Below are positions 12,899-28,847 of a stretch of DNA of 34,840 nucleotides, in pieces (the stretch's first letter is position 1; every line of letters begins with the position of its first letter). A program made the translations under genes and the position numbers. Origin of the DNA: Dorea sp. AF36-15AT (GTDB lineage: Bacteria > Bacillota > Clostridia > Lachnospirales > Lachnospiraceae); NCBI RefSeq assembly GCF_003477705.1, contig NZ_QUDV01000013.1, positions 1 to 34,840 of the forward strand, given 5' to 3'. The notes below the pieces were generated by a model that worked only from the letters and a program-made list of their open reading frames with translations, was not told where the DNA came from and did not search any database.

Positions 12899-13193
12899 TA
12901 TCAACAATCAAATGCGACGAACAGGACAACACTTTTCGTTCACTTGTGTTTACAGAGAGTCTTCGGTCGGTGTAAGAAGACATCACAGGAACAAGAAGCT
13001 ATCACCTGCAAGCAGCCTGAGTCAACACAAATTACACGTTGCAAGTAATTCAGGTCGGAGATCCACCGTTACAGGGATGCTCATTCAAAGGATGAGACAG
13101 AGAGGCCGGTTATTCCGGCAAGAGAAGTGGTATCGCGAAGGTTTAAGTCTCCGTCTTCTTATGGATAATCCATAAAGGACGCAGGCTTTTTTT
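12899..13193 (+). promoter_or_regulatory. T-box riboswitch leader upstream of cstA
   Basis: The distal Stem I signature is canonical: AGAGAG (12954-12959), then GTCTTC and GAAGAC enclosing GGTCGGTGTAA (12965-12975). The next helix pairs CTTGTG (12943-12948) with CACAGG (12984-12989). The antiterminator T-box AAGTGGTATCGCG is at 13125-13137; its TGGT would pair with a tRNA end whose discriminator is A. The best specifier reading is ATC (Ile) at 13001-13003, followed by A and by CCTG pairing with CAGG; GCT (Ala) at 12998-13000 is the alternative. Uncharged cognate tRNA would favour read-through into the transporter gene. T-box identity is firm; specifier identity is tentative. Confidence 0.88.
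13152..13193 (+). terminator. Regulated terminator of the T-box
   Basis: CGTC...GACG encloses TTATGGAT and ATCCATAA around a short loop, followed by a seven-T tract. It overlaps the 3' side of the antiterminator, as the T-box mechanism requires. Confidence 0.75.
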
Positions 13194-13283: not shown

Positions 13284-14981
13284 ATGAACACATTAGTAAT
13301 CGTATTGATCGCAGCAGTATGCCTCCTGGCCGGATATGCACTTTACGGTCGCTGGCTTGCAAAAAAGTGGGGTATTGATCCTACCGCAGAGACACCGGCC
13401 GTCAGACATAATGATGGCGAAGATTATGTACCGACCAACGGATGGACCGTATTTGCACATCAGTTTTCTTCTATCGCCGGAGCCGGTCCCGTCACCGGTG
13501 CCATTCAGGCAGCAGCATTCGGATGGCTTCCAGTACTTCTCTGGATCTTGTTAGGCGGCATCTTCTTCGGCGCAGTTACCGATTTCGGTGCACTGTACGC
13601 AAGTGTTAAAAATGAAGGTAAGTCCATGGGACTTCTGATTGAGAAATATATCGGCAAGACCGGACGTCGTCTGTTCCTCGGTTTCTGTTGGCTGTTCACA
13701 CTGATCGTTATCGCAGCATTTGCAGACATGGTTGCTGGTACATTTAACGCATATGTAGAAACCGATGGTGTCGTATCCCTCGCTGACAGTGCTAATGCAA
13801 ATGGTGCAGCAGGATGTATCTCACTGCTCTTCATCGCATTTGCAGTAGTATTTGGTCTGATCCAGAAGAAATTCAATTTCAAGGGCTGGAAACAGGTAGT
13901 CGTAGGACTGGTATTCACAGCAGCCGCTCTGCTGATCGGTATGAACCTTCCTATCATTGCTACCAAAGATACCTGGTCATACATCACATTTGCTTATATC
14001 TTCCTGGCAGCCGTACTTCCAATGTGGCTTCTGATGGAACCAAGAGATTACATGACCACATTCATGTTCGCAGGTATGATCATCGGTGCTGTGCTCGGTC
14101 TCGTTGTAGCACATCCATCTATGAACCTCCCTGCATACACAGGCTTCAGTAATGAAGCCCTCGGCAATCTGTTCCCGATCCTGTTCGTAACAGTTGCCTG
14201 CGGAGCTGTATCCGGATTCCACAGCCTGGTATCTTCCGGTACATCTTCTAAGATCATCGCAAATGAAAAAGATATGTTAAAGGTTGGCTATGGTGCCATG
14301 GTACTGGAAAGTCTGCTGGCTGTTGTAGCTCTCTGCGTTGCAGGTGCTGCCGCTTCCGCTGATGGAACTGCTGCCGTAGGCACACCATTCCAGATCTTCT
14401 CTGCCGGAGTTGCAGGATTCCTGAAAATGTTTGGTATCCACGCATTCGCAGCACAGTGCTTTATGACCATGTGCGTATCCGCACTGGCACTTACAAGTCT
14501 GGACTCTGTAGCACGTATCGGACGTATGTCCTTCCAGGAACTCTTCAGTGTTGATGATATGGAACATGCAGCAGGATGGCGCAAAGTTCTCTGCAACAAA
14601 TACTTCTCAACCATCATTACACTGGCTTGTGGATTCATCCTTACAAAGGTTGGATATGCCAATATCTGGCCACTGTTCGGCAGTGCCAACCAGCTGTTAA
14701 GCGCACTGGTTCTGATCACACTGTGTGTATTCCTAAAAGTTACAGGTCGTGAGAACCGCACACTGTTCCCGCCGCTCATCATCATGCTGTGTGTAACATT
14801 TACCGCACTGGTACAGCGTTCTATCGCACTGGTCAAAGCATTCAGCGCAGGAACTGCAGTATTCATGGTGGAAGGACTTCAGCTGATCCTTGCAATCCTG
14901 CTCATCATCCTTGGTGTTAATATCGTAGTCACATCAGGAAAAGAACTATTTAAAAAGAAAGCGGATAAAGCACAGGCTTAA
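13284..14981 (+). CDS. cstA: CstA family transporter, T-box controlled
   Basis: 565 residues, polytopic, with about 15 hydrophobic segments. The CstA signature is at the N terminus: TNGWTVFAHQFSSIAGAGPVTG, broken here into TNGWTVFAHQFSS and IAGAGPVTG, then WILLGGIFFGAVTDFGALY. Also seen are GFHSLVSSGTSSKII and LFGSANQLLSALVL. E. coli relatives (CstA, BtsT) take up pyruvate or peptides. AAGGAGTG precedes the ATG. Because a T-box reading aminoacyl-tRNA status controls it, the cargo here is probably an amino acid, a peptide, or a precursor. It is monocistronic, ending in the terminator at 15009. Confidence 0.92.
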   Translation: MNTLVIVLIAAVCLLAGYALYGRWLAKKWGIDPTAETPAVRHNDGEDYVPTNGWTVFAHQFSSIAGAGPVTGAIQAAAFGWLPVLLWILLGGIFFGAVTDFGALYASVKNEGKSMGLLIEKYIGKTGRRLFLGFCWLFTLIVIAAFADMVAGTFNAYVETDGVVSLADSANANGAAGCISLLFIAFAVVFGLIQKKFNFKGWKQVVVGLVFTAAALLIGMNLPIIATKDTWSYITFAYIFLAAVLPMWLLMEPRDYMTTFMFAGMIIGAVLGLVVAHPSMNLPAYTGFSNEALGNLFPILFVTVACGAVSGFHSLVSSGTSSKIIANEKDMLKVGYGAMVLESLLAVVALCVAGAAASADGTAAVGTPFQIFSAGVAGFLKMFGIHAFAAQCFMTMCVSALALTSLDSVARIGRMSFQELFSVDDMEHAAGWRKVLCNKYFSTIITLACGFILTKVGYANIWPLFGSANQLLSALVLITLCVFLKVTGRENRTLFPPLIIMLCVTFTALVQRSIALVKAFSAGTAVFMVEGLQLILAILLIILGVNIVVTSGKELFKKKADKAQA

Positions 14982-15086: not shown

Positions 15087-18000
15087 TTATCTGTTCTTTC
15101 TTCTCTTGTACACAACGGTTCCGCCTGTAACTACTACACTCATTGCAAGGAGCAGACACAGCAGTCCAATGTGGTTATAATCACCAGTCTTAGCTGCTTT
15201 CTTTGCATCTGCCGGTTTCTTATTATTACCATCATTCTTGCCATCTGTTGTTCCAGCTCCACCATTACCCTTATCACCTGTTCCTCCAGCAGTTCCCTTT
15301 ACATCCTGCTCTGTATACCAGATAGAATAGGTAGAGAATCTGTCTGTCTCAAATGTAATGGTCTTTCCATTCAGTGTTGTAGGAAGAATCTCTGCGACTC
15401 CGTCATGAACACGGATTACATAGTAAGTTCTTGTCTTACCTTTTGGTGCGATCAGATTCTCTGGAAGTTCTACAGATATCTTCACTTTCTTAGACAGTTC
15501 AGCACCTGTAACTTTCTCAGGTTCACTGTCACCGATTACTTTCCACATAGAGATATCCAGATATAATCCCTTCTTGATACCTTCGATCTCAGCTGCTTTT
15601 GCATTGGTTTTTACAATATCCTCTGCCGGTACAGCCGATTCTTCTAACTTGGTAACTTCCAGATATACATTAGCCTTTTCTCCAGCCTCAACCTGTGCTT
15701 TTTCTTCATCAGTCAGCACATCCTTCTTGATGCTGTCCTTATCGAAGTCATCTGCTTTTGTAGATGGAGCAGACGGTTTCACTACAACGTTAGCCTTATC
15801 AGAAGCTACAATCTTAAATGTCTTATTCAGTGTACCCTCGTACTTACCAATACCTTTAATAATCACATGTCCAACACCAAGCTCTACATTATCTGTATAA
15901 GATACTTCAAAATCTGTACCTTCCTTCAGACCTTCGATCGTTACTGTCGGTTTGATCTCTTTGCCAGTATAATCAGCCTTATCAAATTCTACTGTCACCT
16001 TATCTTCTACTTCATCCAAGCCGATCTTACCAGTATAGTTGATTACATAAGTATCGTCTGTAAGTTTTCTATGTTCTTTATTTGTCGTTGTAACCTCTAC
16101 AACATGGCTTCCGTCTTTTCCTTTGTTATTACGGAAAGGCTGTGCGCCAACTGTAGTAATAGAGTTCGGGAATGCAACTGTCTCAAGCAATGCTTCTTTG
16201 AATGCAAACTTACCAATGCTTTCTACACCCTCTTCAAGAACCAGAGTCTTTAATGTAGTAGCTTTGTAAGTTCCTTCAAATGCAGACTCACCAATCTCTT
16301 TTACACTTCCAGGAATAACCAGGCTTGAAAGGTGATGTAAGTGGAATGCTTTCATACCAATCTTAGTTACAGAATTCGGGATCTCCAGAGATGTCAGTCT
16401 TGCTCCTGCAAATGCAGTCTGTCCGATCTCTGTTACAGTATTCGGAATCGTCACATGATCCAGACGGATATTCATAGAGAACGCTCCTGCCGGGATTACG
16501 GTTACTCCGCTTGACAGTCTTACTTCTGTAATATCATTAGCTGAGAATGCTCCGTCTCCAAGTTCTGTTACTGTATCCGGAAGAATTGCCTCTACCAGAT
16601 CATTGCCATAGAATGCGGATCCTCCAATCGATGTGATACCTGTAAAATCAACTCTAACCAACGCATTCTGAGAGAAAGCTTCTTTACCAATCACAGTAGC
16701 CTTTTCCGGAAGTACAACAGATGTCATACCATTTGGAGAATTGACACCGAATTTGGTTATCTCTACTTCTGCATCCGGAATCTTAAATGCAGCTTCACCG
16801 ATTGCAGTAATATCCTGTCTGTCAGGTGTCTGATCCGGAAGCACCAGTGTTCTGATCGTCTGTCTCTTAAGCTGTCCGCTTTCAGACCATCCTGTGATGG
16901 TTGTTCCATCGTATGTGAAATCATCCAATGTCCAGCCCGAACCAACAAGCTTATCATATACAACTATATGTGATTTTTGATTTGCAAGAGTTGTATTCCA
17001 CTCCTGTGCTTTTGTCTTATCAGCCACTTTAACTGTAACGATCGGACTTGCCGCCGCTTTTGATGTTCCAAAGATTAAATCAACTGATTTATTTGCATGA
17101 GACAAAGTCACAGTACTTGGAAGCTCCACTTCTGTAATAACGCTTCCGACAAAAGCTTCCTGTCCGATTGTTTCCAATCCTTCATTCAAACTTACAGTAG
17201 AAAGCTTATGCTCAAGTCCTTTCTGAAATACTCGAAATGCTCGTTTTCCAATTGTCTTAACATTTGTCGGTAATGTAAGTTTGGTCAATTGATGATTCTC
17301 AAATGCCTGATCTCCAATTGTCTCTAATGTACTTGGCAGTACAACTTCTTCGACATGTCTGCCTGCGAAAGCACTCTTTCCGATAGTAACAACGCCTTCC
17401 GGAACTACCAGAGTACCAAACTTAGACAATGAAGTTCCACCGTTCATAAATGCACTTGCCGGAATATCTTTTACATTAGCAGACAGTTTAATTACCTGTA
17501 GTTCCTGACTTCCGGTAAATGTTGCATTCCCCATAGTAGTTACACTATCCGGAATTGAAACAGCTGTCAGTTTGGAGTTCTGGAATGCTGTCGCTCCAAT
17601 TTCTTCTAATCCCTCTGGGAATGTAATAGAAGTCATTGCGCTCTCATAGGTCAAAGTTCCATTCAGTGCAAATGCACAATTACCAATCGTCTTCAACGTA
17701 GTCGGAAGCGATACGCTTGCCGGTGTGTAGTTCTTATCGTCTGCACTTACAACAAAAATACCCTGGTTATTTGCTCCGGCTCCTAATGCCGTAATTGCTT
17801 CTCCATTTGGTCCTTCTTTTGGAAGAATCAGATTCGGATTATTCTTAATCTTAGCTTTACCTGAATCAGCAAGACCGGTAATGGTTGTTCCGGCCTCATC
17901 ATATGTGAAGTCCTTCACACCCCACGGTGCCTGTTCTTCAGGAATAGCTTTCTTAATGATTCTGTGATACTTAGAAGTTGTCTCATCAGCTACAAATGCT

Positions 18001-20633
18001 CCAAGTGTTTCTGAATCGATATATACATCCACTACCACATTATTCTTATTAACAAATGTATTTTTATCTAATTTGCTTGTATTGGCAGGAAGCTGAACCG
18101 ATGTGATCTTGTTAACACCAAACGCTCCTCCATCTACCTGGAACGGATAGTCCGTTTTCTCAGGAAAATCTAAAACTGTAATTTCATTGTTTCCAAATGC
18201 CTGGCTTGCAACCTGCATAATCGTCTTCGGGAATTTGACAGATGTAAGCCCATTATATTTAAAAGAATTACCCCCTACATAAATCACACCTTCCGGAAGA
18301 TCTAAGGTTGCCAGCTTATTTCTCATAAAAGCACTTGCGCCGATAAAGAAGTCGCCACGCTCATTCAGTCCCTGAACCTCCTGCCATGTCGATGGTTCAC
18401 AAGAAGCTTTGACATTCTCCGGAAGAGTTAATGTTTCTATTTGTAAATCCTCTTCTCCGGTAGCCTTTCTTTGAAATGCACCGGTTCCGATACCCTGAAT
18501 TTTTTTGCCATTTGCGTCTTTTGCCGGAATCACCAGATTCTTATTGACTTTAATCTTCTCCTTACCTTGATCAGAGAATCCAGTCACTACATGAACAGTA
18601 AAGTTCTTTGTTGATTGATAGGCATCTGCCGGCCACAGACCGAAGCTCTCTTCTCCATAAGTAAAATCATCAGCAGTCCATACTGAATCATCTTTTAAGT
18701 ACAGCTTGTGTCCAGTACCTACTGGGAAGTTCTTGGTATCTTCATATTGTTCTTTCGATGTTACATATACTTTTGTAATTACATCAGACTGTGTTTTCTC
18801 AAAAGTATTTTTATTAAGTTTCTTTACTGTGGTCGGAAGCATTACTTCTGCAACTACTTTGTTTCTGAATGCATAGCTTCCAATAGTTGTCAGGCCTTCC
18901 GGAAGTGTCAATGTACATGGATCTGTCAGATATTCCTTGGTCGAAAATGCATAAGCTCCAATCTCTGTCACCGTTGACGGAATGTTGATTGCAGAAAAAT
19001 TATTGCCCGCAAAAGCATTTCTGCCAATCTTGGTAATTCCTTCCGGAATCACAATACTTTTCAGATTAGTCATATAATGCTTTGCATCACTGCAGCCAAA
19101 TGCTGCATCTGGGATCTCAGTCAATCCCTTAGAAAGATTGATTCTTTCCAGACTCGGATTTGTTGCAAATGCTCCGTTTCCAAGAGTTGTTACTGTATCC
19201 GGCAGGATAACGCTTGTAAGATTATTATTCTGAAATGCTGTTGCTCCAATTTCAGCAAGTTTAGATGGGAATGTTACTTCTTTCAATCCATTTGCCTGGA
19301 ATGCGAAGGATCCCACTTTCTGCAATCCAACCGGAAGATATACTGTATCAAATCCTTCTGTTGCCGATGCAAAAAGTCCGTTGCCGCCAGCTTTCGCATC
19401 TGCGATTGCAGTCACATACGTACCTTCACTGGTAAAATCCGGGATAACCAGATCTTTATTTGTTGCTCTTTTTGCAATACCTGATTCAGACAAGCCAGTT
19501 ACAGTCTGTCCTTCAAAGGTAAAGTCATTAACATTCCATGGAAGATCCGGGTTTTCTGTTTCCTCAGAACCGTCATTGATGATCAGTCTCTGTACCCATG
19601 AGTGCTGTGATTCTGTCTCTTTCTTATCATGATGGATTCTGTCTTTTACCTCAAACTCTGCATTATCCGCATACATATATACGATACCTGCGGTATGTGT
19701 TTTTCCATCTGCTCCCTTATATGACTTATATTTGTCCGGTGCCTCATTTGCCAATGGTTCTTTTCCCGGATTCCAGAAAAAGCTGTCTTTATTAACAACT
19801 TCTGTATAATCCGGCAGTCTTACAGACGTAATTAAGTTATTGGCAAATGCCATACCGTGCATTTCCAACTGGAAATCACAGGTAGTCGGGAAATTAACAG
19901 TCGTGATAAGATTCCTTCCAAAAGACTGTGTTTCCAGCCACCAGATTGTCTTTGGTAATTTTACAGTTGTAATCTTATTGCCCATAAATGAATTAGACAG
20001 ACATGCGATCACACCTTCCGGAAGAGTAACGGAAGTAAGTTCATTGCCTGAAAATGCATTTTCACCAATTACAAAGTTACCTCTCTTTGTTACCTTTCCA
20101 TTCGTAACTGTATCATTATAGTCCACCATCATTCCGGTAGGAAATTGTACAGATGTAAGTCCCTTTTTTGCAAATGCGCTTGGTGCTACACCTACTACCG
20201 CATCTCCTTCATCATCTGTAGCCGGAAGCACCAGATCTTTGTTCTTCTCTAACTTAGCAAGACCTGATTCTGAAAATCCTGCAATCGCAGATCCTTTGAT
20301 TGTAAAGTCTCTGGAATAATCGCAACCATACAGACGCTTCTCATAATAAGTGTATGTAAAGTCTTCTACCTTCCATACAGAAGCATCTATCTCGTCTGCT
20401 CCCTGAGCAGTCGGCTCTTCAGCTGCATCAACTGTACCCGGTTCTGCGACCGGTTCCGTTTTGTCTTCTTCTGTTACATCCTCCGACTGTTTGTCATCTC
20501 CAGTCTTCTCAACTTCCTGAGTCACTTCTGTATCTGCATCTGTTCCGCTTATTTCGGCTGCTGATACAGACAGCGCACTGGAAAAGACCATGCACAGACA
20601 GAGAATAAGTGCTATAAGTCGTTTCTTTTTCAC
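15087..20633 (-). CDS. Giant BspA-like leucine-rich-repeat surface protein
   Basis: 1,848 residues. An N-terminal signal peptide (KKKRLIALILCLCMVFSSA, cleavage near SVSA-AE) precedes an acidic Thr/Glu/Asp-rich stretch. Five large modules follow, each opening with W-x-x-x-DFTY or DFTF, then a (V/I)TG(F/L/W)S-x-x-G motif, then BspA-type LRR_5 repeats of the form LP-x-T-V-T-x-IG-x-x-AF-x-x-N. Next comes a beta-rich domain (VTVEFDKADYTGKEIKPTV) and a Gly/Asn/Lys-rich linker. The end has AKTGD, a hydrophobic segment and YKRRKNR, resembling a sortase signal but without LPxTG. The start is the GTG with AGGAGG 8 bases upstream; longer in-frame starts lack a site. Probably an adhesin displayed on the surface. 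Confidence 0.88.
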   Translation of the reverse strand: MKKKRLIALILCLCMVFSSALSVSAAEISGTDADTEVTQEVEKTGDDKQSEDVTEEDKTEPVAEPGTVDAAEEPTAQGADEIDASVWKVEDFTYTYYEKRLYGCDYSRDFTIKGSAIAGFSESGLAKLEKNKDLVLPATDDEGDAVVGVAPSAFAKKGLTSVQFPTGMMVDYNDTVTNGKVTKRGNFVIGENAFSGNELTSVTLPEGVIACLSNSFMGNKITTVKLPKTIWWLETQSFGRNLITTVNFPTTCDFQLEMHGMAFANNLITSVRLPDYTEVVNKDSFFWNPGKEPLANEAPDKYKSYKGADGKTHTAGIVYMYADNAEFEVKDRIHHDKKETESQHSWVQRLIINDGSEETENPDLPWNVNDFTFEGQTVTGLSESGIAKRATNKDLVIPDFTSEGTYVTAIADAKAGGNGLFASATEGFDTVYLPVGLQKVGSFAFQANGLKEVTFPSKLAEIGATAFQNNNLTSVILPDTVTTLGNGAFATNPSLERINLSKGLTEIPDAAFGCSDAKHYMTNLKSIVIPEGITKIGRNAFAGNNFSAINIPSTVTEIGAYAFSTKEYLTDPCTLTLPEGLTTIGSYAFRNKVVAEVMLPTTVKKLNKNTFEKTQSDVITKVYVTSKEQYEDTKNFPVGTGHKLYLKDDSVWTADDFTYGEESFGLWPADAYQSTKNFTVHVVTGFSDQGKEKIKVNKNLVIPAKDANGKKIQGIGTGAFQRKATGEEDLQIETLTLPENVKASCEPSTWQEVQGLNERGDFFIGASAFMRNKLATLDLPEGVIYVGGNSFKYNGLTSVKFPKTIMQVASQAFGNNEITVLDFPEKTDYPFQVDGGAFGVNKITSVQLPANTSKLDKNTFVNKNNVVVDVYIDSETLGAFVADETTSKYHRIIKKAIPEEQAPWGVKDFTYDEAGTTITGLADSGKAKIKNNPNLILPKEGPNGEAITALGAGANNQGIFVVSADDKNYTPASVSLPTTLKTIGNCAFALNGTLTYESAMTSITFPEGLEEIGATAFQNSKLTAVSIPDSVTTMGNATFTGSQELQVIKLSANVKDIPASAFMNGGTSLSKFGTLVVPEGVVTIGKSAFAGRHVEEVVLPSTLETIGDQAFENHQLTKLTLPTNVKTIGKRAFRVFQKGLEHKLSTVSLNEGLETIGQEAFVGSVITEVELPSTVTLSHANKSVDLIFGTSKAAASPIVTVKVADKTKAQEWNTTLANQKSHIVVYDKLVGSGWTLDDFTYDGTTITGWSESGQLKRQTIRTLVLPDQTPDRQDITAIGEAAFKIPDAEVEITKFGVNSPNGMTSVVLPEKATVIGKEAFSQNALVRVDFTGITSIGGSAFYGNDLVEAILPDTVTELGDGAFSANDITEVRLSSGVTVIPAGAFSMNIRLDHVTIPNTVTEIGQTAFAGARLTSLEIPNSVTKIGMKAFHLHHLSSLVIPGSVKEIGESAFEGTYKATTLKTLVLEEGVESIGKFAFKEALLETVAFPNSITTVGAQPFRNNKGKDGSHVVEVTTTNKEHRKLTDDTYVINYTGKIGLDEVEDKVTVEFDKADYTGKEIKPTVTIEGLKEGTDFEVSYTDNVELGVGHVIIKGIGKYEGTLNKTFKIVASDKANVVVKPSAPSTKADDFDKDSIKKDVLTDEEKAQVEAGEKANVYLEVTKLEESAVPAEDIVKTNAKAAEIEGIKKGLYLDISMWKVIGDSEPEKVTGAELSKKVKISVELPENLIAPKGKTRTYYVIRVHDGVAEILPTTLNGKTITFETDRFSTYSIWYTEQDVKGTAGGTGDKGNGGAGTTDGKNDGNNKKPADAKKAAKTGDYNHIGLLCLLLAMSVVVTGGTVVYKRRKNR

Positions 20634-20834
20634 TTCATTTACCTCCTGTTCTCGACACTCCATTAATATCTTTAGCATAACATTTATTTCACTTTTTTGA
20701 TAATTGGTAATTTTTATATATATTATGTATTTATTGATATTATCTATAGTGTGTATTGCACGATATAAAACTTGCATTTTGGCTCCATTTGTGAAATTAT
20801 ATACTATATATAAGAAAATACAGGAGATTTTATT

Positions 20835-21914
20835 ATGAAGTTTTTAACTCAGAAGTCTACAGCTTTTTTACTGCTTGTGCTTTCGGCGGCAACTGGTTTA
20901 CTGCTGCTTACATTCAGCCACAATCTAATGTACTACTGGTTATTCGGATTAGGATTTGGAATCATATTACAGCGGTCTCATGTATGCTTTGTATCCGCTG
21001 CAAGTGATCCGATTCTATCCCAGTCTACCGATCAGTTTCGATCTATATTAATTGCTATCCTGATTGCCTCCTTCGGAATATCGGCAATCAAGTACCTGTC
21101 TGGCGGTATGTACGACACTCTGGGAGTTGCAGCTGTAAGTATTCCTCTGGTTCTTGGAGCATTTATATTCGGTATTGGCATGGAACTTGCAGGTTGTTGC
21201 TGTTCCGGCATGTTTATTCGAATGGGTGAAGGTTATTCTGTTCACTTCATTACATTCATATTCGTAGTACTCGGATATACATTGGGTAATACCCATTACG
21301 ATCAGCTATGGGCTCCACTTGTTCAGCAATCGCCCTCTATATTCTTCCCGGAACGATTCGGCTGGGGACTTGGTGTCGGCATTCATATTGCAATTTTGAT
21401 GACTTTCTATATAATAGCAGTTAAGAGAGATACGCAGCCTGCTGCCAATGAGAATACTGCTTATCTAAAAGGAGCAATATGCCTGGGCATTTTAAGTGTC
21501 ATACACATTATCCTTCTCAAGTCTCAATGGTCAGTATCCGGTGCTTTTTACTGGATCGAGGGCTGTACTAAGAATCTGTTCACTGGCACTATTAAAGATT
21601 TTCTAAATTGCAAGGCTTCTATCGAAGTAGCCGCAGGCTCGAACCTGCGTAATTTAGGATTATTAGTTGGATCCCTGATTTCTGTATTATTCAGTTCTCA
21701 GTTTAACTTCCGAAAGATCCATTCCAGACAACAGGTAATCAAGTCCGTGATCGGTGGTTCTCTCATGGGCTATGGCGCATGCATTGCCGGTGGATGTAAC
21801 ATTACCGCTTTCTTTATGGCAACTGCATCCCTGTCTTTGTCCGGCTGGGTATTTATGATTGCATTATTCGGCGGCGCATTTGTTGGTATCAAATTATTGT
21901 ACAAATTTGTATGA
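20835..21914 (+). CDS. yedE: YedE/YeeE (TsuA-like) membrane transporter, putative selenium or thiosulfate importer
   Basis: 359 residues with about nine membrane segments in two related halves. Conserved Cys-containing loops are seen: LQRSHVCF near residue 50, ELAGCCCSGMFIRMGEG near 117-133, and GYGACIAGGCNITAFF near 314. In the TsuA/YeeE family such cysteines pass thiosulfate through the pore; a subfamily of Clostridia is annotated as putative selenium transporter because it co-occurs with selenium genes. CAGGAG precedes the ATG. The TGA stop overlaps the ATGAGG just before the next gene, so the two are translationally coupled. That neighbour carries a probable Sec codon, which supports the selenium reading, but substrate is not proven. 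Confidence 0.85.
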   Translation: MKFLTQKSTAFLLLVLSAATGLLLLTFSHNLMYYWLFGLGFGIILQRSHVCFVSAASDPILSQSTDQFRSILIAILIASFGISAIKYLSGGMYDTLGVAAVSIPLVLGAFIFGIGMELAGCCCSGMFIRMGEGYSVHFITFIFVVLGYTLGNTHYDQLWAPLVQQSPSIFFPERFGWGLGVGIHIAILMTFYIIAVKRDTQPAANENTAYLKGAICLGILSVIHIILLKSQWSVSGAFYWIEGCTKNLFTGTIKDFLNCKASIEVAAGSNLRNLGLLVGSLISVLFSSQFNFRKIHSRQQVIKSVIGGSLMGYGACIAGGCNITAFFMATASLSLSGWVFMIALFGGAFVGIKLLYKFV

Positions 21915-21925
21915 GGATTTATAAT

Positions 21926-22630
21926 ATGAAGATTATTACAAAGTTCAAAGATCGGTTTTCTTATCCAATCAAACATCAAAAAGAAAAAATAGTAATTGCC
22001 ATTACTCTGATCTGTTTTTTGATCTCAGGTTTTTCCCTTCCGTCAATTCGGGCTGCTTACGGCATTGAACCCGTTGAAGATACCATAACGCAGCAGGACT
22101 CCGATTCTAAGGATGCTAACACAGTTCAAACAAAGAAGACCAAAAAGACAGAGAAGAAAAAAGAAGATAAGGAAGAGGCTGATAAGGAAGATATAGAAGA
22201 AAGTGATAAAGAAGACAAGGAAGAAGTAGCAGAAGCACCAAAAGATTCTGAGAACGATGGCAAGAATGAAAAGTCCTCGGAGAAAAAAGGCTCTGAGAAT
22301 TCTGCTTCAGATACTGCTTCATCCAATAACAATGCCGGAAGTTCCGACAACTCCGGAAACACACCTGCCCCTGCGCCACCACCGCAGAAGGTATGGGTGC
22401 CTCCGGTTTATCAGACCATTCATCATGACGCTGTATATAATACTGTCAAAGTAGTTGTCTGCAATTACTGTGGTGCCGAATTTGGTTCAGCCGGTGAATT
22501 CCAGGTACACAAAGATGCCAATGGCGGATGATCAGGCTTGCACACGACTTGCAGGTATGTAAGTAAACAAGTCCTGGTTCAGGCAGCCTGGGACGAGCAG
22601 GTGCTCGTTCAGGAAGGCTATTATAAATAG
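21926..22630 (+). CDS. Candidate selenoprotein: membrane-anchored protein with Cys-Cys-His-Sec motif
   Basis: Read with TGA at 22529-22531 as selenocysteine, this is 234 residues ending at TAG 22628-22630. A membrane anchor or signal covers about 22-40 (IVIAITLICFLISGF). A long Lys/Glu then Ser/Asn/Pro-rich linker follows. The C-terminal domain has tandem VYQTIHHDAVYNTV and CNYCGAEF: Cys179, Cys182, His195, Sec202, then His206 and Cys209. The spacing Cx2C-x12-H-x6-U resembles a zinc finger whose fourth ligand is Sec. After the TGA the frame stays open 32 codons with the family-like ending QAAWDEQVLVQEGYYK, and a terminator lies 5 bases on. A SECIS-like hairpin follows the TGA. The alternative is a premature stop giving 201 residues. 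Coupled to yedE; GAGG precedes the ATG. Confidence 0.65.
22529..22564 (+). promoter_or_regulatory. Candidate bacterial SECIS element after the in-frame TGA
   Basis: TGA at 22529-22531. Starting 15 bases later, ACTTGCA (22547-22553) pairs with TGTAAGT (22558-22564) in 7 bp including one G-U, closing the 4-base loop GGTA. The loop starts 22 bases after the TGA and begins with G. These values fall within the published bacterial SECIS consensus as I know it (small loop with G in the first two positions, stem 4-16 bp, TGA-to-loop about 16-37). A competing pairing, GACTTG with CAAGTC, has a 16-base loop and is weaker. Confidence 0.6.
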
Positions 22631-22635
22631 CTTAT

Positions 22636-22670
22636 AAAAGGAGATGCGGCACGAGCTGCATCTCCTTTTT
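22636..22670. terminator. Bidirectional terminator between the yedE unit and the lar operon
   Basis: AAAAGGAGATGC and GCATCTCCTTTTT form a near-perfect stem (12 bp) with an 11-base loop. It begins 5 bases after the TAG at 22630, supporting that TAG as the real end of the upstream gene. Confidence 0.88.
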
Positions 22671-22718: not shown

Positions 22719-23825
22719 CTACTGCACACCCAAACCTTTTGCCACCAGTGTAATAAAATCCTGCACATTTGTTACCATCGTAGTCGCACTCAGACTTCCC
22801 CGATCCAGTAATTTATTTACCACAAATTCATCGATATCGATCGTATACAGATACACCGGACGAATTGTGCCGTCCTCGAGCATTCGGAATGACGGTGTCA
22901 TATTACCGGTTGCTATAGTATGAAGCATGGTCGCCATACAGATCACCGTCGTTGCGTTACGCACCAGTCCTCGCATAGCATCTGCCGCATCATAGACATT
23001 GCCGATTACTTCCGGTAGCGGTCCGTCATCACGGATGGAACCTGCCAGCACGAATGGAACATTATGCTTAACGCAGCTACAGATAATGCCATCATCTAGC
23101 TTATAGTCCTCAATAAACTGCGGGATAGATCCGCTTCTTCTTACCTTATTCAGCACATCCAGATGATTATAATGTCCATTTGGCTGTGACTCCTGCGTAT
23201 AAATGTCCTGTCCCAGCGCTGTATGCAGAAGTGCCCCTTCCAGATCATGTGTTGCAAGTGCATTGCCCGCCAGCACGCCCTGCGCATATCCATTCTCAAT
23301 CAATGCCTGCATAGCTGCTCTTGCATCCGCATCAAATGCAAATGCCGGTCCCATTACCCAGACTACATTTCCGCCATTCTCCTTTTCATATTTTAACAAT
23401 TCAAATAACTTATCATAATCTCTTGCATAAGAGGTCTCACGGCTTCTTCCCTGACGGAATACAAACTGATCATCAAGCTTTGCTCCCGGCTCTTCAAAAC
23501 CATGACAGTGCATATAGATGCCTTCCTCACAACGTTCTGTTCTGCCTGTGATTACACGGTCACCCTTTTTCAGGTTCCGTGCCTCTACAACTGCCAGATG
23601 TCCATCCTCGCAATACACGACACAGGAGTCCATACGACTTTCTTCTGCGAGCTTCCACTCTCCGTCTATTTTAAAATATTCTGGATACATGGATGTGCTG
23701 TGAAAATTCTCCGGCGCAACGCCATCCTTCTCCGCTGCTTCATACTTTACACTTGGTGCATTTACAAACATTTCCTGACTAAAATCCGGATGTCTGTACT
23801 CTGGCATTTCAAATTTGTTCATCAT
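22719..23825 (-). CDS. TIGR00300/LOR-SDH family protein, putative (nickel-pincer-linked) ornithine cyclodeaminase
   Basis: 368 residues (or 367 from the second ATG; AAAGGAGG serves both). The N-terminal LOR/SDH domain includes GDRVITGRTERCEEGIY; the C-terminal Rossmann-like domain includes NVVWVMGPAFAFDADARAAM, VLAGNALATHDLEGALL and CSCVKHNVPFVLAGSIRDDGP. Archaeal TIGR00300 proteins and the C-terminal domain of cyanobacterial ArgZ/AgrE are linked to ornithine cyclodeamination, giving proline and ammonia. It is not a member of the usual mu-crystallin-type cyclodeaminases. It is the last gene of the larB-larC-larE unit, in place of larA, so use of the nickel-pincer cofactor by this protein is a reasonable inference. 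I recall a similar annotation in reference databases but cannot check it here. Confidence 0.78.
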   Translation of the reverse strand: MMNKFEMPEYRHPDFSQEMFVNAPSVKYEAAEKDGVAPENFHSTSMYPEYFKIDGEWKLAEESRMDSCVVYCEDGHLAVVEARNLKKGDRVITGRTERCEEGIYMHCHGFEEPGAKLDDQFVFRQGRSRETSYARDYDKLFELLKYEKENGGNVVWVMGPAFAFDADARAAMQALIENGYAQGVLAGNALATHDLEGALLHTALGQDIYTQESQPNGHYNHLDVLNKVRRSGSIPQFIEDYKLDDGIICSCVKHNVPFVLAGSIRDDGPLPEVIGNVYDAADAMRGLVRNATTVICMATMLHTIATGNMTPSFRMLEDGTIRPVYLYTIDIDEFVVNKLLDRGSLSATTMVTNVQDFITLVAKGLGVQ

Positions 23826-23857
23826 ATTTCCTCCTTTGCTGTCGTTCCTCTTTGCAG

Positions 23858-24676
23858 TTATTTCTTTACATGAAGATCCATGCTTCCGGATCGGAAGCCT
23901 TCCAGATCCACTGTAATGTAATCATAGCCCAGATTTTTTAATTTCGCAACAATCTGCTCGCAATGCTCCAACAAATGAGGCATCTCGTTCACATCCACTT
24001 CAATTCTTGCAACATCATTATGAATGCGCAGACGCACATTGTAGAAACCCAGACTTCTGATAAATACTTCTCCCTCGTCAACCTTTCTCATAGCCTCATA
24101 CGAAATACGTGTTCCATACGGGAATCTGGTTGCAAGACATGGCATAGACGGCTTATTCGATACGGATACGCCAAGCTCTCCCGCCAGCTTTCTGACCTCT
24201 GCTTTCGTCATTCCTGCTTCCGCTAATGGACTGTGGATGCCAAGTTCACGAATTGCCCGAAGACCCGGGCGATATACATGCAGGTCATCCTCATTAGTTC
24301 CTTCCATCATAACAGACACGCCAAGTTTCTCGCCCTCTTCTATCAGATTACGAAACAGATATTTCTTACAGCGATAGCAACGATCCACCGGATTATCCAG
24401 AATATCCGCACCTTTCAGTTCATCAATCTCAAGCACCCGGAATTCTGCTCCAATCTGCTCTGCTGTTACCCTCGCATCCTCTACTTCTCCCATCGGATGG
24501 AGCATCGTATGCATCATAATACCATATACCTGATGTCCAGTTTTCGCAGCTGCCTGCACCGCAAGCTTCAGGATCAGACTACTGTCTACTCCTCCTGAAA
24601 ATGCAACCAACATATCTCCCTGTGCATATACAAGCATCTGTTCCTGTAGTTTTTGTTTCTTCTCTTCATACGTCAT
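23858..24676 (-). CDS. larE: LarE, sulfur transferase for nickel-pincer cofactor synthesis
   Basis: 272 residues. An ATP-pyrophosphatase PP-loop, AFSGGVDSSLIL, lies near 25-36; the nucleotide-binding region is followed by EGTNEDDLHVYRPGLRA, KPSMPCLATRFPYG and a C-terminal LarE domain with RIEVDVNEM. LarE activates the pyridinium carboxylates by adenylylation and inserts sulfur to make the thiocarboxylates. Cys100 and Cys103 (DRCYRCK) plus Cys180 (PCLATR) are all present; LarE proteins with three such cysteines have been reported to hold an iron-sulfur cluster, unlike the single-Cys sacrificial type. I start at the ATG of MTYEEK with AGGAGG 9 bases upstream; a longer frame adds 14 residues without support. 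Confidence 0.92.
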   Translation of the reverse strand: MTYEEKKQKLQEQMLVYAQGDMLVAFSGGVDSSLILKLAVQAAAKTGHQVYGIMMHTMLHPMGEVEDARVTAEQIGAEFRVLEIDELKGADILDNPVDRCYRCKKYLFRNLIEEGEKLGVSVMMEGTNEDDLHVYRPGLRAIRELGIHSPLAEAGMTKAEVRKLAGELGVSVSNKPSMPCLATRFPYGTRISYEAMRKVDEGEVFIRSLGFYNVRLRIHNDVARIEVDVNEMPHLLEHCEQIVAKLKNLGYDYITVDLEGFRSGSMDLHVKK

Positions 24677-24742
24677 GTCACCTATCCTCCTGCCATCATT
24701 GTCTGTCATAGTGACCATATACGAATCCTGTTCTTTTTAAGT

Positions 24743-26074
24743 TTATTTCTCCACAGTATCCGTTGCTGCACTTGCTATGCGCCATGCCTTCTGAAATGAC
24801 ATATTATGCGTTTTGCAGAGTTCCACCACACTGTCATATTCCGGATACGCTCGGATTTCTTCTCCGATCCGGCATACCTTAACCTGTACTTTTCCATATG
24901 GTGTATCTATCTGTCTGATTTCCCTCGGAAGTATTGTGCGCTCCATACGACACCTGCGCACGCCAATTGTCGTAGTGTTACAGAACAATATATTCTGCAA
25001 TTTATCAACATCCTGCTCCCGGCAGATTATATTAATCTGAACCGCCGGACGGTTCTTTTTCATATAAATAGGTGTATAATATACATCCCTTGCACCTGCA
25101 GCAAAAAGTTCATCCATCACAAAACCAAGGACTTCTCCACTGCAATCGTCCAGATTGCTCTCGAGACGCCATATTGTATCTGCCGCTTCCGCACTTCCAC
25201 TTTCCAGCAGCATTGCTCTCAATATACCGGTACCCTCATATTCTCTTTTTCCTGCACCCATTCCAATCTTTACAATACGACAGGCCTGCGGTAACTTGTC
25301 TGATGTACGTACTGCTGCCACAATCGCAGCTCCTGTCGGTGTCACCAGTTCTCCCTGCACACCTGTCGGCTTCAAAGTTAGTCCATGTGCCTGTGCGATA
25401 TTAACTACCGCCGGAACCGGTACTGGAATAATGCCATGCTGACAGCGAATAGAGCCCTGACCTTCACACAGAAACGGTACAATCACTTCCGTGATATCCA
25501 GATTATCCAGACATACTGCCACTGCAAGAATATCTACAATAGAATCTACTGCTCCTACCTCATGGAAATGTACCTGATCTGCCGGTACGCCGTGTGCCTT
25601 TGATTCCGCTTCCGCAAGTATCTGGAAAATACGGACAGCAGTCTCCTTTGCACGTTCTGTCATATCTGCATGCTCAATAATATGTAAGATTTCATGAAGC
25701 CCTCGGTGCTCATGATGATGTCCATGATCGTGATGATGCTCGTGACTGTGGTCATGGTGGTGATGCTCGTGTGTGTGTACACTTCCATCCTCGTGTACAT
25801 GCTCATGGTCATGTGTGTGCTGATGATCATGCCCATGCAGATACTCCATATCATGGTCATGGTTCTCATGTTCCGCATCCAATATCACATCAAAATCACA
25901 GACATCTAATCCTGACTTTACTTTTCTTGTAACTGCTATCTCAAAGCCTCCCACCGGAAGGCTTGCAAGTGCTTTTCTTAATATCTGCTCGTCTGCCCCC
26001 AGATCCAGCAGTGCTGCAACCGTCATATCACCGCTGATGCCGGAATAGCATTCCAAATATAACTGTCTATTCAT
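24743..26074 (-). CDS. larC: LarC, nickel insertase, uninterrupted form with His-rich domain
   Basis: 443 residues. LYLECYSGISGDMTVAALLDLGA is typical of LarC; shown here in pieces, ECYSGISGDM lies at 8-17. A strongly His-rich region runs about 69-124 (alternating H-D-H-E), then the core with VHFHEVGAVDSIVDILAVAV, GELVTPTGAAIV and NLDDCSGEVLGFVMDELFAAGARDVYY. LarC places nickel into the pincer nucleotide in a CTP-dependent reaction. In Lactobacillus plantarum larC is split into larC1 and larC2 joined by programmed frameshift; here it is a single frame. ATG at 26074 is chosen (AGGTGG upstream) over an in-frame GTG three codons earlier. It lies between larB and larE. Confidence 0.93.
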   Translation of the reverse strand: MNRQLYLECYSGISGDMTVAALLDLGADEQILRKALASLPVGGFEIAVTRKVKSGLDVCDFDVILDAEHENHDHDMEYLHGHDHQHTHDHEHVHEDGSVHTHEHHHHDHSHEHHHDHGHHHEHRGLHEILHIIEHADMTERAKETAVRIFQILAEAESKAHGVPADQVHFHEVGAVDSIVDILAVAVCLDNLDITEVIVPFLCEGQGSIRCQHGIIPVPVPAVVNIAQAHGLTLKPTGVQGELVTPTGAAIVAAVRTSDKLPQACRIVKIGMGAGKREYEGTGILRAMLLESGSAEAADTIWRLESNLDDCSGEVLGFVMDELFAAGARDVYYTPIYMKKNRPAVQINIICREQDVDKLQNILFCNTTTIGVRRCRMERTILPREIRQIDTPYGKVQVKVCRIGEEIRAYPEYDSVVELCKTHNMSFQKAWRIASAATDTVEK

Positions 26075-26092
26075 CCTGTCCACCTATAACCT

Positions 26093-26836
26093 TTATTTTA
26101 CTGCAAGCCGGTTGATCTGTGTTGCCATATATCCGGCTCCATATCCGTTATCAATATTTACCACAGCAATTCCATTTGCACAGGAATTGATCATAGTAAG
26201 AAGCGCCGATAATCCGTGCATACTTGCACCATAGCCGACCGAAGTCGGCACTGCGATCACCGGATTACTCACCAGTCCGCCAACTACGCTTGCCAGTGCG
26301 CCTTCCATGCCAGCCACTGCCACAACACAGTTCGCCTCCTGAACGGTATCAAGCTGCGCTAATAATCTATGCACACCGCTGACACCCACATCGTAAATCC
26401 GATCTACATTTGCACCAAAAAATTCTGCTGTCTGAGCTGCCTCTTCTGCTACCGGGATATCCGCAGTACCTGCACTGCAGATTGCGATTTTACCAATATG
26501 TTCCTTATCTTCTTTTTCGATTTTCAAAATATGAGAAATCGGATCATACACGACCTGCGGAAGCACCTGTTTTACAATCTCATACTGATGCTCACTTGCC
26601 CGTGTTCCGAATACTTCTCCATTTTCATCATACAATTTCTGATAAATGGATGCCAGAAATTCATCCGGCTTACCACTGCAATACACAACTTCCGGAAAAC
26701 CGGAGCGGATCTCCCTGTGCGAATCCAGCTTGGCATAGCCCATTTCTTCATACGGCTGCTTCCGCAAATGCTTCTCCGCTTCCTCTATCTCTATTGTTCC
26801 ATTTTTCACCTGTTCAAGTAAATCTTTCACATTCAT
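26093..26836 (-). CDS. larB: LarB, pyridinium dicarboxylate synthase
   Basis: 247 residues. The C-terminal half carries the PurE-like core of LarB: KIAICSAGTADIPVAEEA, IYDVGVSGVHRLLAQLD, VAVAGMEGALASVVGGLV and AVPTSVGYGASMHGLSALL. The N-terminal half (residues 1-110) begins MNVKDLLEQVKNGTIEIEEAE as usual. LarB carboxylates nicotinic acid adenine dinucleotide at C5 and cleaves the phosphoanhydride, the first step to the nickel-pincer nucleotide. CAGGAAA precedes the ATG. The stop is about 18 bases before the larC start, so it heads the biosynthesis block after the AraC regulator. Confidence 0.93.
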   Translation of the reverse strand: MNVKDLLEQVKNGTIEIEEAEKHLRKQPYEEMGYAKLDSHREIRSGFPEVVYCSGKPDEFLASIYQKLYDENGEVFGTRASEHQYEIVKQVLPQVVYDPISHILKIEKEDKEHIGKIAICSAGTADIPVAEEAAQTAEFFGANVDRIYDVGVSGVHRLLAQLDTVQEANCVVAVAGMEGALASVVGGLVSNPVIAVPTSVGYGASMHGLSALLTMINSCANGIAVVNIDNGYGAGYMATQINRLAVK

Positions 26837-28389: not shown

Positions 28390-28821
28390 CTATTTCATAA
28401 ATTGATCGATAGCTTTATTTAACTGCTCGATTGCTTCCATATCATGCTCTTTAACTGCTTCTACAATGCAGTGATTCATATGGTTCTTTAACACTACCTT
28501 ACCTGTATTATTAATTGCAGAACGCACTGCTGCAAGCTGAATAAGGACCTCACTGCAATCTGCATCTCTTTCCACCATACGTTTCACAGCTTCCAGATGA
28601 CCGATAGCTTTGGCAAGACGGTTCACAACTGCTTTCTTTTCTTTCTCACTGTGCACATGATGATGTCCATGTTCTCCATGTCCATGCTCGTGGCTATGCT
28701 CCCCATCATGATCGTGCGGATGATCATGCGAGTGTTCGTGACTGTGCTCGTGTGCAATTCCCAGCTCATGCAATTCTTCATGCGTATATTTCTTTTTTGT
28801 CTGTGCATTCTCTGTATTCAT
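28390..28821 (-). CDS. CsoR/RcnR-family metal-sensing repressor with His-rich N terminus
   Basis: 143 residues. Residues 23-57 are an alternating His/Glu/Asp/Gly tract with about 18 histidines. The C-terminal part is the all-helical DUF156 fold: KAVVNRLAKAIGHLEAVKRM, Cys89, then His114 and Cys118. The Cys-x24-His-x3-Cys spacing equals that of Mycobacterium CsoR (Cys36, His61, Cys65), a copper(I) site; nickel-sensing RcnR has His in place of the last Cys. The His tract is not part of the core family and could store or sense nickel, zinc or copper. ATG of MNTENA chosen (GAGTGG upstream). Transcribed after the HAD gene with a 26-base gap. Confidence 0.82.
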   Translation of the reverse strand: MNTENAQTKKKYTHEELHELGIAHEHSHEHSHDHPHDHDGEHSHEHGHGEHGHHHVHSEKEKKAVVNRLAKAIGHLEAVKRMVERDADCSEVLIQLAAVRSAINNTGKVVLKNHMNHCIVEAVKEHDMEAIEQLNKAIDQFMK

Positions 28822-28847
28822 ATCAACCACTCTTTTCTGTATTACTC

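Follow-up and report, generated by a model that had tools for sequence, protein, structure and literature searches.

A predicted selenoprotein with a zinc-finger-like domain encoded beside a YedE/TsuA-like transporter

Genes and features of the locus

The window, by which we mean the whole 34,840-nucleotide stretch of Dorea sp. AF36-15AT analysed here, carries a predicted selenoprotein gene on its forward strand (21926..22630), recognised from its reading frame and its homologues. The frame opens with an ATG at 21926, reaches an in-frame TGA at codon 202 (22529..22531, forward strand; the predicted selenocysteine codon), continues for 32 sense codons and closes with a TAG at 22628-22630. If the TGA is read, the product has 234 residues, with selenocysteine (Sec) at position 202. 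A terminator-like stem-loop follows (22636..22669, forward strand), its stem beginning 5 bases 3′ of the TAG. The initial annotation had described this frame in the same terms, from the TGA at 22529 to the terminator, and the sequence bears it out. Immediately upstream lies the gene of a YedE/TsuA-like transporter (20835..21914, forward strand; PF04143, 163.6 bits against a cut-off of 27) with relay cysteines C51, C122 and C321. A GAGG adjoins the stop codon of this yedE gene, and the selenoprotein ATG stands 11 nt past its end at 21914. Divergent from the pair is the gene of a giant BspA-type leucine-rich repeat (LRR) surface protein (15087..20777, reverse strand), which profile matches and locus comparison identify as a conserved neighbour and which the initial annotation had missed.

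Following a basic N-terminus, a hydrophobic segment of the selenoprotein (residues 23-41; 21992..22048, forward strand) is predicted from hydropathy to form a membrane anchor, and by the same measure 85 of 87 homologues have a hydrophobic N-terminal segment. This arrangement leads us to predict an anchored selenoprotein with an external domain, and the C-terminal domain very likely lies outside the cell. A linker of about 114 residues, charged in composition and rich in Ser, Asn, Gly and Pro (22049..22390, forward strand), connects the anchor to this C-terminal zinc-finger-like domain (22394..22627, forward strand), which is delimited by alignments and a predicted core and carries C179, C182, H195, U202 and H206. 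The C-x2-C-x12-H-x6-U spacing and the nearby Cys209 noted initially are indeed present as C179, C182, H195, U202 and C209, the last of which occurs in most close forms. A structure model predicts a beta-beta-alpha core for the domain, in keeping with its zinc-finger-like reading. The modelled selenoprotein has four long strands, two of which would be missing from a product that stopped at the UGA. Searches with the domain gave nothing over the Pfam cut-offs (PF13894, 16.7 of 27 bits; PF00096, 14.8 of 25.2 bits) and no NCBIfam match at E up to 5. Structure searches returned no clear relative, a result in which an absent fold excludes nothing.

Several other features of the window deserve mention. 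Converging on the selenoprotein gene from the reverse strand (22719-26836) is a nickel-pincer cofactor cluster comprising a variant of the NPN-dependent ornithine cyclodeaminase together with larE, larC and larB. No homologue of larB, larC, larE or the cyclodeaminase was present in the loci compared, and a link between the selenoprotein and this cluster was rejected on that ground. Further along the same strand (28390-28830) lies a metal-sensitive repressor of the CsoR/FrmR type, whose N-terminus carries a long stretch rich in His. On the forward strand, a T-box leader (12908-13161; 98.1 bits) stands just 5′ of the gene of a 565-residue membrane protein (13284-14981), which may be a CstA-type transporter.

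Reading of the in-frame UGA

Residues 150-234 were searched against 5.8 billion predicted proteins, which yielded 160 candidates for scoring and, from these, 87 homologues. In 84 of the 87 the last residue is the one before the TGA; of the remaining three, P0002 seems to be frameshifted near the site, P0003 has Trp at the UGA place, and P0088 is a distant relative. Scanning species genomes gave 11 loci (L001-L011). In seven of these (L001-L007), which include loci of Clostridium cadaveris and Anaerovorax odorimutans, the in-frame TGA is present and the extension is complete as far as its final AWDE-x-VLVSEG. Of the remaining four, L008 has Cys, the more distantly related L011 has a TGA, and the motif is absent from L009 and L010, which belong to one species. 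The initial annotation had named homologues that end at residue 201 with nothing conserved downstream as an observation that would count against it; the DNA of L001-L007 carries the extension. It had likewise raised a sequencing error, which we reject as the source of the TGA, given that the codon recurs in many separate contigs.

Purifying selection acts on the extension as it does on the sequence ahead of the TGA. Pooled over six sequences (the window, L001, L002, L004, L005 and L006, omitting L003 as a near-duplicate of L001 and L007 for its differing length), pN/pS is 0.206 before the TGA and 0.219 after it. Nucleotide identity of the extension to the window is 0.69-0.77. On the 3′ side of the second stop the sequence is unrelated; ungapped comparison with the window gives an identity there of just 0.18-0.33. 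Wider sampling of 299, 8, 225, 391 and 1 genomes produced strong TGA forms only in genomes already known to have them, and one weak linker match with both TGA and TAA (G446) was disregarded. An origin from mobile elements was rejected, since the search of plasmids produced no match and none of 10 pattern matches in viral contigs was confirmed.

A hairpin after the UGA, as claimed in the initial annotation, is present at 22547..22564 (forward strand), where folding and a recoding test predict a SECIS element with a 6-bp stem (ACUUGC/GUAAGU) and a 6-nt loop. The window and L001-L006 all pair ACUUGC with G[U/C]AAGU at a distance of exactly 15 nt from the UGA. In each of them the loop begins 21 nt after the UGA, and a G occupies loop position 2. 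Published limits on the stem, loop and spacing of bacterial SECIS elements, as given in PMC13188914 (section 5), accommodate this hairpin. Among residues identical in all seven sequences, only four codons besides those for Met, Trp and Sec are without synonymous variation, and the invariant stem codons ACT, TGC and AGT belong to this set. When codons were redrawn among their synonyms, at frequencies estimated from these loci, the stem survived in 0.4-3.9% of draws for each sequence. In 20,000 draws the stem never occurred in more than three of six sequences at once (L003 being left out of this count), while all the real sequences have it.

L007 has other letters at this place and keeps four of the six pairs, two of them by changes on both sides. 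An eight-row alignment pairs in 95.8% of its cells, against at most 35.4% when the pairing is slid, with the caution that 12 of 500 shuffles score as high and that both double changes come from L007 alone, which breaks two of the six pairs. Across nine stretches, folding energy was outstanding against shuffles only in the window (z -3.1) and in L005 (z -2.7, with another pairing), and the minimum folds of L005 and L007 differ from the hairpin. The energy of the 53-nt stretch was below -7.5 in eight of nine cases, L011 being the exception. Overall, the sequences show the hairpin to be under selection at the RNA level.

Cysteine stands at the U place in distant homologues, namely in L008, in L013 of genome G154 and in all eight of P0089-P0096. 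L013 and P0089-P0096 read HRPxPC-DG-[NK]H where the window reads HKDANGG-U-SG-LH. Four columns are invariant in an alignment of eleven domains: the one holding U or Cys, the second Cys of the CxxC, the His in the helix and the His that follows U. A 25-row alignment (A4) sets the U two columns away from the Cys of the distant form, and the two coincide in another alignment (A5) and in tblastn. No close Cys homologue was found; 21 candidates had words in common with residues 195-234, and the only ones among them to score, and to carry the extension, were P0002 and P0003. The initial expectation that homologues would have TGA or Cys at residue 202 and share the extension is thus borne out for TGA and the extension in L001-L007 and for Cys in the distant forms, and fails for close Cys forms. 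L011 (6121-6357) is a more distant member whose TGA stands where L013 has Cys; its host has selA, selB, selC and selD, and its 12-kb locus showed no yedE.

A check for selA, selB, selC and selD in the host had also been proposed, and in related genomes its outcome is divided. All four genes for Sec synthesis and insertion were found in five of the seven genomes carrying a close form, and none of them in the other two, the metagenome-assembled genomes G003 (L003) and G007 (L007). In several genomes the sel genes lie on one or a few contigs, so a single missing fragment of a metagenome assembly could remove them all. More broadly, selA, selB, tRNA-Sec and selD exceeded their cut-offs in 8 of 10 genomes, and in all eight selD has an in-frame TGA of its own. 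Among 14 control genomes, 5 also came up to the cut-off of the tRNA-Sec model, which makes scores near 47 bits weak (G008, 48.5); the five close-form genomes score 62-76 bits. Within the family, selA is over its cut-off in 44 of 299 genomes. The best 23S match to the window in the sample is G241 (95%), a genome that has selA and belongs to the same genus as G001 and G003.

Taken together, these patterns suggest that the UGA at codon 202 is almost certainly read as selenocysteine. That the TGA is an ordinary stop followed by a chance open frame has practically no chance of being right. Open length by itself is weak evidence, as among 19 others in the window, 2 genes also stay open for at least 32 codons past their stops; it is conservation that decides the matter, and the pattern of selection (extension kept in frame, pN/pS 0.22) rejects this reading. 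Reading of the UGA as another amino acid, or unspecific read-through, could draw on the Trp of P0003 and on the two genomes without sel genes. It is nonetheless very improbable against a hairpin under synonymous constraint, Cys in the distant homologues and sel genes in five of seven genomes. Only slightly more probable is a selenium-dependent switch in which the 201-residue and the full-length forms are both functional. The two forms would differ strongly, the short one being without two of the four long strands, but no second role for it is visible, and it would keep the CxxC and the His with no fourth ligand.

Genomic neighbours and proposed function

The transporter is a regular companion of the selenoprotein. 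In the window and at six of the seven close loci (L001 and L003-L007), a codirectional yedE precedes the selenoprotein gene by 6-78 nt; those of the loci have 47-58% identity to that of the window. The gene is split in two in L004 and L006, and between the halves in L004 lies a TusA gene (L004:5248-5472; 80 bits). At L002 no yedE was seen, and a run of 269 Ns separates the LRR gene from the selenoprotein gene. Weaker PF04143 genes occur on the sel-gene contigs of G001, G002, G004 and G006, and in G002 these weak matches are the only ones; their position on such contigs implies that the yedE of the window is a second paralogue. The Cys form of G154 adjoins a YedE of 35% identity with the gene order reversed, an independent pairing. 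Gene order therefore supports the link to a transporter made in the initial annotation.

The kind of transporter differs from what had been supposed. The initial annotation connected yedE with a family that includes putative selenium transporters, and the YedE of the window is not the seleno-YedE of TIGR04112, a name we rejected at 23.9 bits against a cut-off of 200. It appears to be an FdhT/TsuA-like paralogue, though it scores below those cut-offs too (NF033796 FdhT, 145.1 of 350 bits; NF052577 TsuA, 104.3 of 400 bits). Its C51, C122 and C321 align with C22, C91 and C293 of YeeE. Elsewhere, in genome G010 (contig C23, 47771-48730), a full-length PF04143 transporter contains one in-frame TGA and is possibly the Sec-containing YedE given as GUxSG in PMC13188914.

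We consider it fairly likely that the selenoprotein is a partner of YedE. Our reading of the whole, to which we give close to an even chance, is that a membrane-anchored and probably extracytoplasmic protein, with Sec read at position 202, presents sulfur or selenium to the adjacent YedE-type transporter. Reading of the UGA would add the last 33 residues to the anchored protein. From its N-terminus onwards, this protein is predicted to consist of an anchor, a flexible linker and a finger-like core with Sec at the fourth metal-ligand place. The selenolate at this Cys2-His site, metal-bound or free, might act on the outside of the cell by attacking thiosulfate, sulfane sulfur or an oxidised form of selenium, after which the tethered domain would swing to the outer mouth of YedE. 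The three channel cysteines could then relay the chalcogen to the inside for pick-up by a TusA-type carrier, such as the one whose gene separates the yedE halves at one locus. The hand-over of chalcogen to YedE is, taken alone, a tentative and somewhat doubtful step. The LRR surface protein would be a likely outer partner or scaffold. A bolder version, which we think unlikely, is that an extracellular Cys2-His-Sec finger uses a metal-bound selenolate to strip sulfur or selenium and load YedE, forming with the LRR protein a chalcogen-scavenging machine at the cell surface.

The main rival to a YedE partnership makes the LRR protein the partner, with the selenoprotein forming, repairing or anchoring its conserved cysteines and yedE being secondary. 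A divergent LRR gene adjoins the selenoprotein gene in the window and in L001-L008 (48-64% identical to that of the window in the best stretch), including L008, where no yedE occurs within the 12-kb locus. Of the two neighbours, the LRR protein is thus possibly the more constant one. In its mature part, three cysteines are kept in all eight aligned proteins and a fourth in seven, and L009 too adjoins a large surface protein. We nevertheless judge this explanation unlikely, since yedE is codirectional and close upstream in the window and at six loci, and the Cys form of G154 adjoins yedE rather than an LRR_5 protein. Less probable again is that Sec completes a structural or stress-sensing metal site, an extracellular zinc finger that carries no chalcogen. 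The predicted finger-like core, the zinc-finger profile matches and the conserved CxxC, His and U/C columns are in keeping with such a site, but a purely structural one has no need of costly Sec, and the linkage to yedE, and to TusA in L004, would go unexplained.

Comparison with known systems

Table 1 of PMC13188914 gives 119 bacterial selenoprotein families or subfamilies, and has no entry for a YedE-linked, membrane-anchored, zinc-finger-like protein. Nor was the present protein found in print in the open-licence literature. We thus regard the protein as representing a new selenoprotein family with an unusual site. Gene callers have cut this family at the UGA in 84 database clusters, and the whole family is consequently stored in shortened form. 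The predicted protein resembles the catalogued selenoproteins in having Sec at a Cys place and a hairpin within the SECIS limits, whereas most of the characterised ones listed there have a thioredoxin-like fold. Here Sec would instead occupy the fourth-ligand place of a finger-like fold, probably outside the cell. The hypothetical protein DG of Desulfosediminicola (NF049953) has, according to PMC12013277, a G-U-x-G motif like the GG-U-SG here; the domain in the window has no match among the NCBIfam models searched.

The domain resembles C2H2 zinc fingers in its CxxC and its helix His, and it matches their profiles, and possibly their fold, weakly; yet it falls below the Pfam cut-offs, its fourth ligand place is Sec or Cys after a six-residue gap, and two long hairpins are added. 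The FmdB family is of zinc-ribbon nature. Its selenoprotein member likewise has Sec in a presumed metal-binding protein, but is listed in PMC13188914 with two Sec residues in a UxxU motif; the domain here has no UxxU and no NCBIfam match to TIGR02605.

Further parallels come from sulfur transport. According to PMC11073785, thiosulfate moves through YeeE by way of C293, C91 and C22 and on to YeeD, a TusA-type protein of the cytoplasm. In the case of SoxT it has been proposed that thiol proteins outside the cytoplasm present sulfur to the outer side (PMC11582611), and we propose this outer role, with a selenolate, for the selenoprotein here. TsuA with TsuB (YeeD), and SoxT with SoxS or a DsbA-like protein, resemble the present pair in that a transporter with three relay cysteines has a redox-active partner encoded beside it. 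The partners themselves differ: TsuB (YeeD) is cytoplasmic and TusA-like, and SoxS and DsbA are thioredoxin-like, whereas the partner predicted here would be tethered outside the cell, finger-like and equipped with Sec.
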